From Sporichthyaceae bacterium (GTDB lineage Bacteria > Actinomycetota > Actinomycetes > Sporichthyales > Sporichthyaceae): a stretch of 33,814 nucleotides of DNA. Made by a program: the position numbers and the translations under genes. Below the pieces are notes generated by a model. It searched no databases. It was not told the origin of the DNA and saw nothing but the letters and a program-made list of their open reading frames with translations. Below, piece by piece: positions 3,009-27,708 of this stretch. The stretch lies in the NCBI GenBank assembly GCA_036493475.1, contig DASXPS010000104.1, positions 1 through 33,814 on the forward strand, written 5' to 3'. Every line of letters begins with the position of its first letter. Position 1 is the stretch's first letter.

Positions 3009-3706
3009 GCCACTCCCTCCCCCAGATACCGGGAGAACACCGCGCCGCCCTCGCACTGCGCGGGCTCGCCGACAAACACCACCCGGCCCTTGTGCAGGAT
3101 GTAGACGTAGTCCGCGATGGCCAACGCCCGGTGCACGTACTGCTCGACGATGAGCAGCGAGCGGCCCTCCGCCTTCAACATGGCCACCGCGTTGAACAAC
3201 TCGTCGATGACCACCGGCGCCAACCCGACCGACAGCTCGTCGATCATCAGCAGCGCAGGCTGCGTCACCAACGCCCGGGCCACGGCCAGCATCTGCTGCT
3301 GGCCACCGGACATGGTCCCGGCGGTCTGGGACAACCGCTCGCCCAACACCGGGAAGTACTTCGTCGCGGTACGCACCGCCTCGGCCTTGCGTCGACCTCG
3401 CACGTGCATGGCCAGGTTCTCCGCCACCGTCAGGTTGCGGAAGATGCCGCGGCCCTCCGGGATCAGGCAGATGCCCGCCTCGACCCGGCTGTGCGGGGCG
3501 CTGTGCGCGAGCGGCCGGCCGTTCCAGAGCAGGTCACCCGCACTCGGGTGGACCAGGCCGGCGATGGTCTTCAGCGTGGTGGTCTTGCCGGCGCCGTTGG
3601 AGCCGAGCAGCGCCACCGTGGCGCCGTCCGGCACCATGATGCTGACGTCGTGCAGCACCTCGGTGCGCCCGTATCCGGCGCGCACATGGCGCAGTTCCAG
3701 GCTCAT
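3005..3706 (-). CDS. livF: Liv-type ABC transporter ATP-binding protein LivF (copy 1)
   Basis: 233-residue ATPase starting MSLELRHVRAGYG. It has Walker A GSNGAGKTT, the LivF-typical ICLIPEGRGIFRNLTV segment, signature MSGGQQQMLAVARAL, Walker B LLMIDELSVGLAP and the VEQYV switch region. LivF pairs with LivG at the cytoplasmic face of the permease. The start at 3706 fits family length and its ATG overlaps the stop of the upstream mini-ORF cassette (3703-3783) as ATGA. The same frame stays open upstream through the cassette, so an N-terminally extended form is formally possible but unlikely. The livG start overlaps its stop. Confidence 0.93.
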   Translation of the reverse strand: MSLELRHVRAGYGRTEVLHDVSIMVPDGATVALLGSNGAGKTTTLKTIAGLVHPSAGDLLWNGRPLAHSAPHSRVEAGICLIPEGRGIFRNLTVAENLAMHVRGRRKAEAVRTATKYFPVLGERLSQTAGTMSGGQQQMLAVARALVTQPALLMIDELSVGLAPVVIDELFNAVAMLKAEGRSLLIVEQYVHRALAIADYVYILHKGRVVFVGEPAQCEGGAVFSRYLGEGVA

Positions 3707-3783
3707 CGACGTCCCTCGTTCCTCGGGACGCCGATGAGGCACGATCGCACTGTGCTCATTGATGAGCTCGCAAGCTCGCTCAT
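3703..3783 (-). repeat. MIRU-like cassette, full copy 1 (26-codon mini-ORF)
   Basis: An 81-base interspersed element exactly filling the gap between the LivHM fusion and livF. On the minus strand it is an open frame beginning MSELASSSMSTV and ending in a TGA that forms ATGA with the livF start; its own ATG forms ATGA with the LivHM stop. Bases 3705-3735 form an 11-bp stem (one G.U) around the loop GAGGAACGA, which carries the Shine-Dalgarno of livF while the livF AUG begins in the stem. ATGAGC flanks both ends. Codons such as TCA, ACA and AGG are unlike the GC-ending codons of neighbours. Whether the peptide itself matters is unknown. Confidence 0.85.
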
Positions 3784-11528: not shown

Positions 11529-11605
11529 CGACCCACCTCGTTCCTCGGTGCGCCGATGAGGCACGTCGGCACTGTGCTCATTGATGAGCTCGCAAGCTTG
11601 CTCAT
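11525..11605 (-). repeat. MIRU-like cassette, full copy 2
   Basis: An 81-base copy between the 7-TM gene and the DUF7065-type gene, with ATGA overlaps at both ends. The mini-ORF is again 26 codons (MSKLASSSMSTV start). The terminal hairpin keeps the GAGGAACGA loop; relative to copy 1 two stem pairs have changed on both sides (U-A to C-G and C-G to A-U), with one G/G mismatch. Confidence 0.85.
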
Positions 11606-12543: not shown

Positions 12544-14049
12544 TCAGATGCAGTTGAACTTGGTGCCCTGGGGCGCGAAGAAGCCGCGCTTGTCAAAGGC
12601 CATGGGGGCGTAGCAGAAGTTCTCCGGCGCATGCGCTTCGCCGAAGGTGTACGTGGTCGGCGGGATCAGCCCACCGAGGGTTTCGGACTTCACCAGGCCG
12701 AGGCCCTTGTAGATCAGCGCCCGGGTCAGCGGCGCGGTGCGCGCCGAGGGACCGAGCAGGTCCACCACGCGCTCAAGCATGGTCGCGCAGGACCAGGCCA
12801 GCGCGCTGGACGCCTCGATGCGCACGGTGGGGGCGTAGCGGGCCATCGCGGTGCGGAACAACTTCTCGCCGAGAATGTCCGCGCCCTGGGAGAACGGGAA
12901 CACCGGCGCGGCCATGGACAGCGTGGCGTTCTGCAGGTTGGTGTCCGATGGGTCGAAGCCGGCCTGGCTGGCGGTGATGGCGATGGGCACGGCCAGCCCG
13001 ACGGTGGCGCAGGACCGGGCGGTGCGGGAGACGCCACCGGCGTCACCGGCGAAGATCAGCGCCTGCACGCCCGCGGTCTTCGCGGCCTGACAGGCGGAGG
13101 TGAAGTCGTTCTGGGTCAGCGAGATCTGCGTCTCGTACGCGATGTCCATGCCGAACTTCTTGGCGTAGCCATCTTTGTCCAGGGTGTCGCGGAACGCCGT
13201 GCACGCGGTGGACTCGACGCAGTAGAAGATGCCGAGCTTCTTCACACCCTGCTTCGCCAACGCTTGCACGGAGCCGGCGAACTGCGCGCGCTCGTTTCCG
13301 CCCACCGGGAACAAGTCCGGGGACAGGCGCCAGTCCGGGGTGACCTGGTCGCCGCCGATGGCGGCGATGTGCATGCTCTCCACGCCCTTGCGGAAGCCCT
13401 GCACGTCCAGCGGGGCGTAGTTGGCGACCAGGGCAACGGCGTTGCGCTGCTGCACCATCTCCTTGACCGCGGCCTCACTGCGCGCCGGGTCGGAGGCGGT
13501 GTCCTTCTGGAACAGGGTGACCGGGTGGCAGCCGATACCGCCGCGCAGGTTCACGTCGCGCACCCACACCGGCAGCACATTGAGCGCGCCCTGGTTGTTC
13601 GCACCGACCAGGCCGGAGAAAGCGCCGACCTGACCGATGACCACCGGCGGGCCCTGGGTGGTGCAGCCGACGGCGACCGCGGGCGCCGGCTTCCCCGCGG
13701 TGGCGCCCGCCTTTGCCTGCCGCGCCTTCGGCCCGACGACCGGCGTGGTCGTCGCGGCGGCGGGTGCAGCAACCGCGGCGGGGGCCGAGTCATCGCTTCT
13801 TGTTCCGGCGTTTTGGGCTATCGGAGCCCCGGGATAGCCCGAAACGCCGGACGAAGATGTGGTGGTGGTGGTGGTGGGAGTTTCGGCGGCCGCGTGCTCC
13901 AGGGCGGCGACGCGACCGTTCAGGTCGCCGCCCTCGGCGGCGACGATCTGCGCGGAGTCCACCCGCGAGCCGCCGCAGGCGGGCAGCAGGAAGCCGGCCA
14001 CGACGAGCACCACGCCGACGCGCAGCGCCCGGCTGCGACGGTGGAACAT
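12544..14049 (-). CDS. Liv-type substrate-binding lipoprotein (module 2)
   Basis: 501 residues. MFHRRSRALRVGVVLVVAG leads to the lipobox LPAC, then a short charged stretch (SAQIVAAEGGDLNGRVAALE), a Thr run and an Ala/Thr/Pro linker. The LivJ/LivK-like domain follows (QVGAFSGLVGANNQGALNVL, RGGIGCHPVTLFQKD, LTQNDFTSACQAAKTAGVQA). The ATG at 14049 follows AAGGAG by six bases. An in-frame ATG at 14064 overlaps the permease stop as ATGA and is a good alternative adding five residues. The linker-coding part contains a 19-bp inverted repeat and a GGT/ACC run, listed separately. It probably serves the LivHM fusion encoded just upstream. Confidence 0.87.
   Translation of the reverse strand: MFHRRSRALRVGVVLVVAGFLLPACGGSRVDSAQIVAAEGGDLNGRVAALEHAAAETPTTTTTTSSSGVSGYPGAPIAQNAGTRSDDSAPAAVAAPAAATTTPVVGPKARQAKAGATAGKPAPAVAVGCTTQGPPVVIGQVGAFSGLVGANNQGALNVLPVWVRDVNLRGGIGCHPVTLFQKDTASDPARSEAAVKEMVQQRNAVALVANYAPLDVQGFRKGVESMHIAAIGGDQVTPDWRLSPDLFPVGGNERAQFAGSVQALAKQGVKKLGIFYCVESTACTAFRDTLDKDGYAKKFGMDIAYETQISLTQNDFTSACQAAKTAGVQALIFAGDAGGVSRTARSCATVGLAVPIAITASQAGFDPSDTNLQNATLSMAAPVFPFSQGADILGEKLFRTAMARYAPTVRIEASSALAWSCATMLERVVDLLGPSARTAPLTRALIYKGLGLVKSETLGGLIPPTTYTFGEAHAPENFCYAPMAFDKRGFFAPQGTKFNCI
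13804..13851. repeat. Long inverted repeat inside the binding-protein linker
   Basis: Arms at 13804-13822 and 13833-13851 are complementary over 19 bases with one T/G exception, around a 10-base loop. The repeat lies wholly within coding sequence (residues about 67-82, including SGYPGAPIAQNAG) in a region expected to be disordered. It would form a strong hairpin in mRNA and might be a small palindromic insertion in the linker. Confidence 0.8.
13858..13877. repeat. GGT trinucleotide run encoding poly-Thr
   Basis: Five perfect GGT units (13861-13875) plus a flanking TGT encode six consecutive Thr residues (ACC/ACA) in the lipoprotein linker. Such tracts can change length by slippage; in-frame changes would only alter linker length. 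Confidence 0.75.
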
Positions 14050-16803: not shown

Positions 16804-16880
16804 CGACACACCTCGTTCCTCGGTGCGCCGATGAGGCACGACCGCACTGTGCTCATTGATGAGCTCGCGGGCTCGCTCAT
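16800..16880 (-). repeat. MIRU-like cassette, full copy 3
   Basis: An 81-base copy with ATGA overlaps to the secreted-protein stop and to the start of the 98-residue membrane protein. The mini-ORF begins MSEPASSSMSTV. Its hairpin has all 11 stem positions paired when two G.U pairs are counted, and shows the same two compensatory changes relative to copy 1 as copy 2. Confidence 0.85.
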
Positions 16881-26807: not shown

Positions 26808-26833
26808 CGTGTGCAGCGCGCCCGTTCCCACCA

Positions 26834-26891
26834 CCTCTCATGGCGTGTGGGGGTATCAGGACGCCTTGATGGCCCGACACGCCATGAGAGG
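26834..26891 (-). terminator. Strong hairpin after the SDR gene, likely terminator
   Basis: Perfect 15-base inverted repeat: CCTCTCATGGCGTGT (26834-26848) pairs with ACACGCCATGAGAGG (26877-26891) across a 28-base loop that itself has a weak ATCAGG/CCTTGAT hairpin. It lies 17 bases past the SDR stop and upstream of the next promoter, the right place to end the P450-SDR transcript. There is no U tract, so it may act with Rho or serve another purpose. Confidence 0.5.
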
Positions 26892-26908
26892 ACGTGGGAT
26901 TGGCGGCG

Positions 26909-27631: not shown

Positions 27632-27708
27632 CGATGCACCTCGTCCCTCGGTGCGCCGATGAGGCACGACCGACCTGTGCTTGTTGATGAGCTCGCAAGC
27701 TCACTCAT
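27628..27708 (-). repeat. MIRU-like cassette, full copy 4
   Basis: An 81-base copy between a crotonase gene and the SDR gene, outside the transporter operon. It is the most diverged full copy: the mini-ORF has ACA for the internal ATG and GGT for GTG, but stays open for 26 codons. The downstream ATGA overlap is kept; upstream the mini-ORF starts three bases after the crotonase stop instead of overlapping it. The hairpin has 10 of 11 positions paired and the loop is GAGGGACGA. The left end reads ATGAGT and the right end ATGAGC. Confidence 0.82.

Follow-up and report, generated by a model that had tools for sequence, protein, structure and literature searches.

A MIRU-like repeat cassette between actinobacterial genes as a candidate ribosome relay with a possible hairpin gate in one subclass

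Can dispersed repeats enter between coupled genes without breaking the coupling, and add a translation gate as they do so? The question is raised by a 77-bp cassette present four times on the minus strand of the window, by which we mean the whole stretch of DNA analyzed (33,814 nt; contig C104 of a 4.27-Mb Sporichthyaceae genome, G000), with starts at 3783, 11605, 16880 and 27708. The high G+C of the window and the genes it carries also suggest an actinobacterium.

The cassette and its probable insertion sites

Cassette 1 (3707..3783) lies between genes for a branched-chain amino-acid permease upstream (5726-3780) and an ABC ATPase downstream (3706-3005). It encodes a mini-ORF of 26 codons (MSELASSSMSTVRSCLIGVPRNEGRR*; 3703..3783) whose start shares the ATGA at 3783-3780 with the permease stop and whose stop shares the ATGA at 3706-3703 with the ATPase start; its 3' part folds as a hairpin (3702..3738). 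The other copies, all on the same strand, are cassette 2 (11529..11605; hairpin 11560-11524; mini-ORF MSKLASSSMSTVPTCLIGAPRNEVGR), cassette 3 (16804..16880; hairpin 16835-16799; mini-ORF MSEPASSSMSTVRSCLIGAPRNEVCR) and cassette 4 (27632..27708; hairpin 27663-27627; mini-ORF MSELASSSTSTGRSCLIGAPRDEVHR), which begins 3 nt past the upstream stop. The downstream genes in the window are unrelated (the ABC ATPase, a short-chain dehydrogenase and two genes without a Pfam match), so we rejected the idea that the cassettes mark a regulon of related genes. Rfam gave no match above its gathering score within the window. Other repeats in the window are two 88-nt direct repeats, 77% alike, before the first gene (53-140 and 195-282), possibly another small repeat family, and long inverted repeats at 26817-26908 (42-nt arms, 8-nt gap) and 13791-13864 (32-nt arms, 10-nt gap), which may act as bidirectional terminators or belong to another repeat.

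Where relatives lack the cassette, the empty site reads ATGA for three of the window cassettes and TGATG for the remaining one. The cassette 1 site is a plain ATGA overlap in the sister species (G001) and in three family members, the cassette 2 site an empty ATGA in the sister species, the cassette 3 site an empty ATGA in G002 and G003, and the cassette 4 site TGATG in G002-G004. At a further site between two conserved genes (L169; orthologs L280-L283), copy number forms a natural series across genomes: G001 has three 77-bp units in tandem, G000 a single unit of 62 bp, and G004 a plain ATGA without a unit. The two NTGAs flanking a cassette agree in their first base in 58 of 73 cassettes, as expected of target duplication. 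Because orthologous sites are empty, we infer that the cassette has been inserted repeatedly into NTGA overlaps, duplicating the NTGA; in a single case, an empty relative could instead reflect loss.

The 5' module of the cassette occurs 13 times in G000 and 90 times in G001, versus 1 and 8 occurrences of the reversed pattern. We parsed 93 cassettes, 62 of which are 77 bp long; the genomes are mostly drafts and the G001 cassettes were sampled with one pattern, which makes the counts lower bounds. Several G001 cassettes stand in tandem arrays with 77-bp spacing. In most cassettes, an upstream ORF ends and a downstream ORF starts at the cassette ends, and 71 of 76 lead into an ORF of at least 70 codons or another cassette. 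The 3' hairpin is absent from most cassettes while the mini-ORF is kept. The N-terminal MSE(L/P/R)AS of the mini-ORF is conserved across families, and the second half of the peptide differs between cassette classes. We scanned 394 genomes of the class with a stricter pattern and found matches in three genomes, the third in another family; in that genome's order, a looser pattern brought up cassettes from several families, 65, 77, 80 and 95 nt long and flanked on each side by NTGA. Some other-family cassettes carry a partial version of the hairpin (L276, L277). In another actinobacterial family (L258-L261, L279) we noted a small mid-cassette stem with a GAA-type loop, apparently covarying by eye (CCGC-GAAC-GCGG, ACGC-GAA-GCGT, CCGGC-GAA-GCCGG), and a free GAGGAG before the start.

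Two stems around two start codons

A sequence-only reading had described an 11-bp stem and 9-base loop at 3705-3735 of the minus strand. The sequence is as given there (AUCGGCGUCCC / GAGGAACGA / GGGACGUCGAU) and the hairpin stands, but the stem is longer: 14 bp, one of them a G-U pair (CUCAUCGGCGUCCC / GAGGAACGA / GGGACGUCGAUGAG, 3738-3702). It takes in the downstream AUGAG, and pairing covers the whole AUG and extends two bases into the second codon, where only the AU of the start codon had been proposed. The double changes from U-A to C-G and from C-G to A-U described for copies 2-4 are present, alongside one mismatch each in copy 2 (G-G) and copy 4 (C-A). Taken by themselves, the four window copies say little, since copies 2-4 probably inherited the change from a common ancestor.

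Covariation across genomic copies, a check named beforehand, proved strong over hairpin copies from two species. A covariance model built from 21 copies and used to search the genomes gave 22 copies at E below 1e-8 (13 in G000 and 9 in G001), with no hairpin found in three other genomes of the family. In the 21 copies scored, standard pairs fill 96.4% of stem cells, double-changed cells number 47 versus 13.8 in shuffles, and the covariation score is 0.518 versus 0.167, with none of 500 shuffles as high; since the copies are related by descent, these cells are not independent events. Double-sided changes occur at 10 of the 14 stem pairs, and covariation in every slid register is far below that in the true register. 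In a tree-aware test, a home-made procedure like R-scape in which substitutions were replayed on a tree built from the hairpin itself, stem pairs 11-27, 12-26, 13-25 and 1-37 ranked as the top four among 666 column pairs. Two of these have E = 0.007 over all 666 pairs, and all four fall below 0.05 when the test is limited to the 14 proposed pairs (E scaled by 14/666). Covariation extends into the second codon of the downstream gene, as in TTCATC/GATGAA (L108, L110) and CCCATC/GATGGG (L102).

The departures from standard pairing favor an RNA-level constraint on the 3' hairpin. On the transcript strand, noncanonical stem cells comprise 17 G-U, 1 C-A and 10 others; transitions in a DNA palindrome would produce G-U and A-C equally often, and the surplus of G-U therefore points to constraint on RNA of the mini-ORF strand. 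Counted by distinct position and type combinations the ratio is 7 to 1, a modest excess because copies share ancestry. Compared with dinucleotide shuffles, all four window cassettes give more stable predicted folds (z from -2.5 to -4.1), each of them folds better on the transcript strand than on the complementary one, and the stem has a stability of about -17 to -31 kcal/mol.

Hardly any variation is seen in the loop GAGGAACGA, which holds GAGGA and also codes for mini-ORF residues RNE. A scan of the whole genome collection with the loop motif gave 38 stretches, none with a paired stem, so the exact hairpin is not widespread among the species of the collection; chance matches in unrelated genomes pair at 11 or fewer of 14 stem positions. 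Searches of plasmids and phages gave no match. Among other motifs seen, Flavobacterium genomes share one like GTCATTCCGAGGAACGAGGAATCTCCGTGAG, partly palindromic, whose likeness to the loop is due to chance or convergence (L056, L057, L062, L064, L070, L073, L076, L077, L079, L080, L082, L083, L086, L088). Many contigs of one Akkermansia metagenome-assembled genome carry TATAAAATAG(A/T)TGAGCCCGAGGAACGAGGGCGGCAGATGAGAGGCAGG, a dispersed repeat that bears no relation to the hairpin (L055, L061, L063, L067, L068, L078, L081, L084, L092).

The sequence-only reading also placed the Shine-Dalgarno in the loop. The loop does contain GAGGA, but this lies 13 nt from the AUG; the likelier motif is a second GAGG (3714..3717 in cassette 1), 7 nt before the downstream ATG, half in the loop and half in the stem. 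An SD-like motif precedes 45 of 76 cassette-borne downstream starts, versus 14.5% of control RTGA sites. The predicted probability that the start codon is unpaired is 0.025 in hairpin cassettes and 0.31 in cassettes without the hairpin. The stem predicted to occlude the downstream start lies within the upstream (mini-)ORF, which ends exactly at that start, so that a ribosome terminating there would open the stem. Together with the covarying hairpin and the signs of RNA constraint, this makes the proposed switch, coupling downstream translation to that of the mini-ORF, plausible where the hairpin occurs. As a general principle the switch did not hold up: the hairpin is present in only 22 of more than 90 cassettes, and nearly all keep the mini-ORF and two NTGA overlaps, which indicates that the family conserves the relay and not the switch.

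A second stem surrounds the start codon of the mini-ORF (3762..3783 in cassette 1). There, AUGAGC pairs with GCUCAU, or with GCGAAU via two G-A mismatches. The start base covaries with its partner: in G001 the combinations are 26 A-T, 31 G-C and 6 others, that is 57 of 63 paired versus 31 expected, and in other families 15 of 17 are paired. This 5' stem is found in nearly all cassettes tested and is thus more general than the 3' hairpin. Its departures, 3 G-T versus 3 A-C, do not favor RNA over DNA. The 5' stem may gate the start of the mini-ORF in the same way.

Frame retention, proposed mechanism and alternatives

In 19 of the 22 hairpin copies, the mini-ORF start lies exactly 77 nt ahead of the downstream start, which the mini-ORF stop overlaps (through NTGA, with one exception among the 19); the mini-ORF's own start overlaps the TGA of the upstream gene in most hairpin copies. 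The exception in sequence is L102, where the TGA is lost by ATGGG, yet the mini-ORF ends in TGATG. Three length variants still connect the neighboring genes: L104 (158 nt) has 53 codons, L109 has two mini-ORFs chained by ATGA, and L093 (69 nt) reads in frame into the downstream gene as a fusion. In L099, L110, L113 and L116, a +1 indel is offset by a -1 indel at differing places, which argues for selection on the frame and not on the peptide. All parsed cassette lengths are 2 mod 3, but we gave this no weight because it is built into ORF-based parsing; the frame argument uses only the hairpin-defined lengths and the compensated indels. The sister-species ortholog of cassette 3 (L049; G001:C36:109600-110700) is a decayed copy that has lost most of the hairpin; an in-frame fusion joins its mini-ORF to the downstream gene, which thereby gains a new N-terminus. 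The copy fits a translated mini-ORF, but shows the hairpin to be dispensable at that locus.

We consider it fairly probable, from sequence comparison, that the cassette is a MIRU-like interspersed repeat that inserts at NTGA and relays ribosomes through its mini-ORF, with a gate added in the hairpin subclass. The 77-bp cassette would enter an NTGA stop-start overlap inside an operon, with duplication of the NTGA. Ribosomes ending the upstream gene would restart on the mini-ORF, end there and restart on the downstream gene, and by this relay the insertion would keep translational coupling. Most cassettes lack the hairpin, so it would not be needed for the relay. In the hairpin subclass, the downstream start and half of the Shine-Dalgarno would be held in the 14-bp RNA stem, keeping free 30S subunits out. 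Covariation and the G-U bias suggest that downstream translation there depends on a ribosome passing through the mini-ORF. The second stem, which covaries too, possibly gates the mini-ORF start likewise.

The main alternative is that the two stems act at the DNA level, as signals of a non-autonomous mobile element used in transposase recognition or target choice and kept by recent spread, with no role in mRNA. Dispersal of the repeat, NTGA duplication, tandem arrays and family-wide palindromes all fit this account, as does the lack of G-U bias in the 5' stem. So does L113: its two ends read TTGA, and in each stem precisely that base is left unpaired, as expected if it came from the target. The 17-to-1 excess of G-U over C-A in the 3' hairpin, the frame-restoring indels and the spread of most cassettes without that hairpin count against it, and we regard it as doubtful as a full explanation; DNA-level roles of the stems in mobility are possible. 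A combined version, in which the repeat targets stop-start overlaps by internal base-pairing with NTGA and its stems later serve as two serial mRNA gates, seems unlikely to us. If true, one palindrome would serve both target choice and translation-neutral insertion in a widespread actinobacterial mobile repeat.

The nearly invariant GAGGA-containing loop could also be read as a landing site, displaying a Shine-Dalgarno for translation of the downstream gene independently of the mini-ORF. The distance of the loop motif from the AUG, the half-paired state of the well-spaced GAGG, the start codon within a stable stem and the coding of RNE by the loop make this quite improbable. Still less credible is a functional 26-residue peptide with the RNA features as by-products: MSE(L/P/R)AS is kept across families, but the second half of the peptide depends on the class, versions shifted in frame (MSERSELINEHS...) are tolerated, and variation at third codon positions only slightly exceeds that at the others. 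That the hairpin is a chance palindrome in GC-rich coding sequence, for which its small size is the sole argument, is refuted by the shuffles and the tree-aware test, and the incomplete pairing of chance matches in unrelated genomes likewise speaks against it; we assign it almost no weight.

Comparison with known systems

REP and ERIC elements are short dispersed palindromic repeats without a transposase of their own. The cassettes resemble them in being short, dispersed and palindromic but, by description, differ in that each is an ORF set within NTGA overlaps, its frame and orientation preserved. MIRU repeats serve for strain typing around the world, and their effect on translation is unsettled. 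Supply et al. in 1997 reportedly described MIRU as carrying a small ORF that overlaps both neighbors and as inserting at DTGA sites; the open literature we searched gave only indirect statements of this description. We know of no description of covarying stems around both start codons for MIRU.

MIRU are short interspersed repeats of 46-101 bp (PMC3914561), among them identical 77-bp units arrayed in tandem in the senX3-regX3 intergenic region (PMC4213456) and 77-bp plus 53-bp repeats at MIRU04 (PMC2453075). Differential translation within operons has been proposed for them (PMC2734929). The cassettes share the repeat length and the many loci (77 bp in 62 of 93), the position between operon genes in the same orientation, the small ORF overlapping both neighbors at DTGA, and insertion into DTGA coupling sites, with the exception of cassette 4, which is offset by 3 nt at an empty site of TGATG. 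They also share tandem arrays with copy-number variation, compared here between genomes of different species. The hosts are organisms other than M. tuberculosis. Likened to MIRU by anatomy and published descriptions, the cassette would work as MIRU do.

For translational coupling itself, both termination-reinitiation and RNA unfolding have been described (PMC12548453), and coupling at overlapping gene pairs has been tested experimentally (PMC6728339). The cassettes resemble these systems in their 4-nt NTGA overlaps and in a stem-occluded start opened by upstream translation (PMC6728339, PMC12548453), the latter as predicted here. They differ in that a dispersed repeat brings both the overlap and the stem, and does so before unrelated genes. 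A MIRU-like family in other actinobacteria, with stems covarying through start codons, makes the translation question testable.
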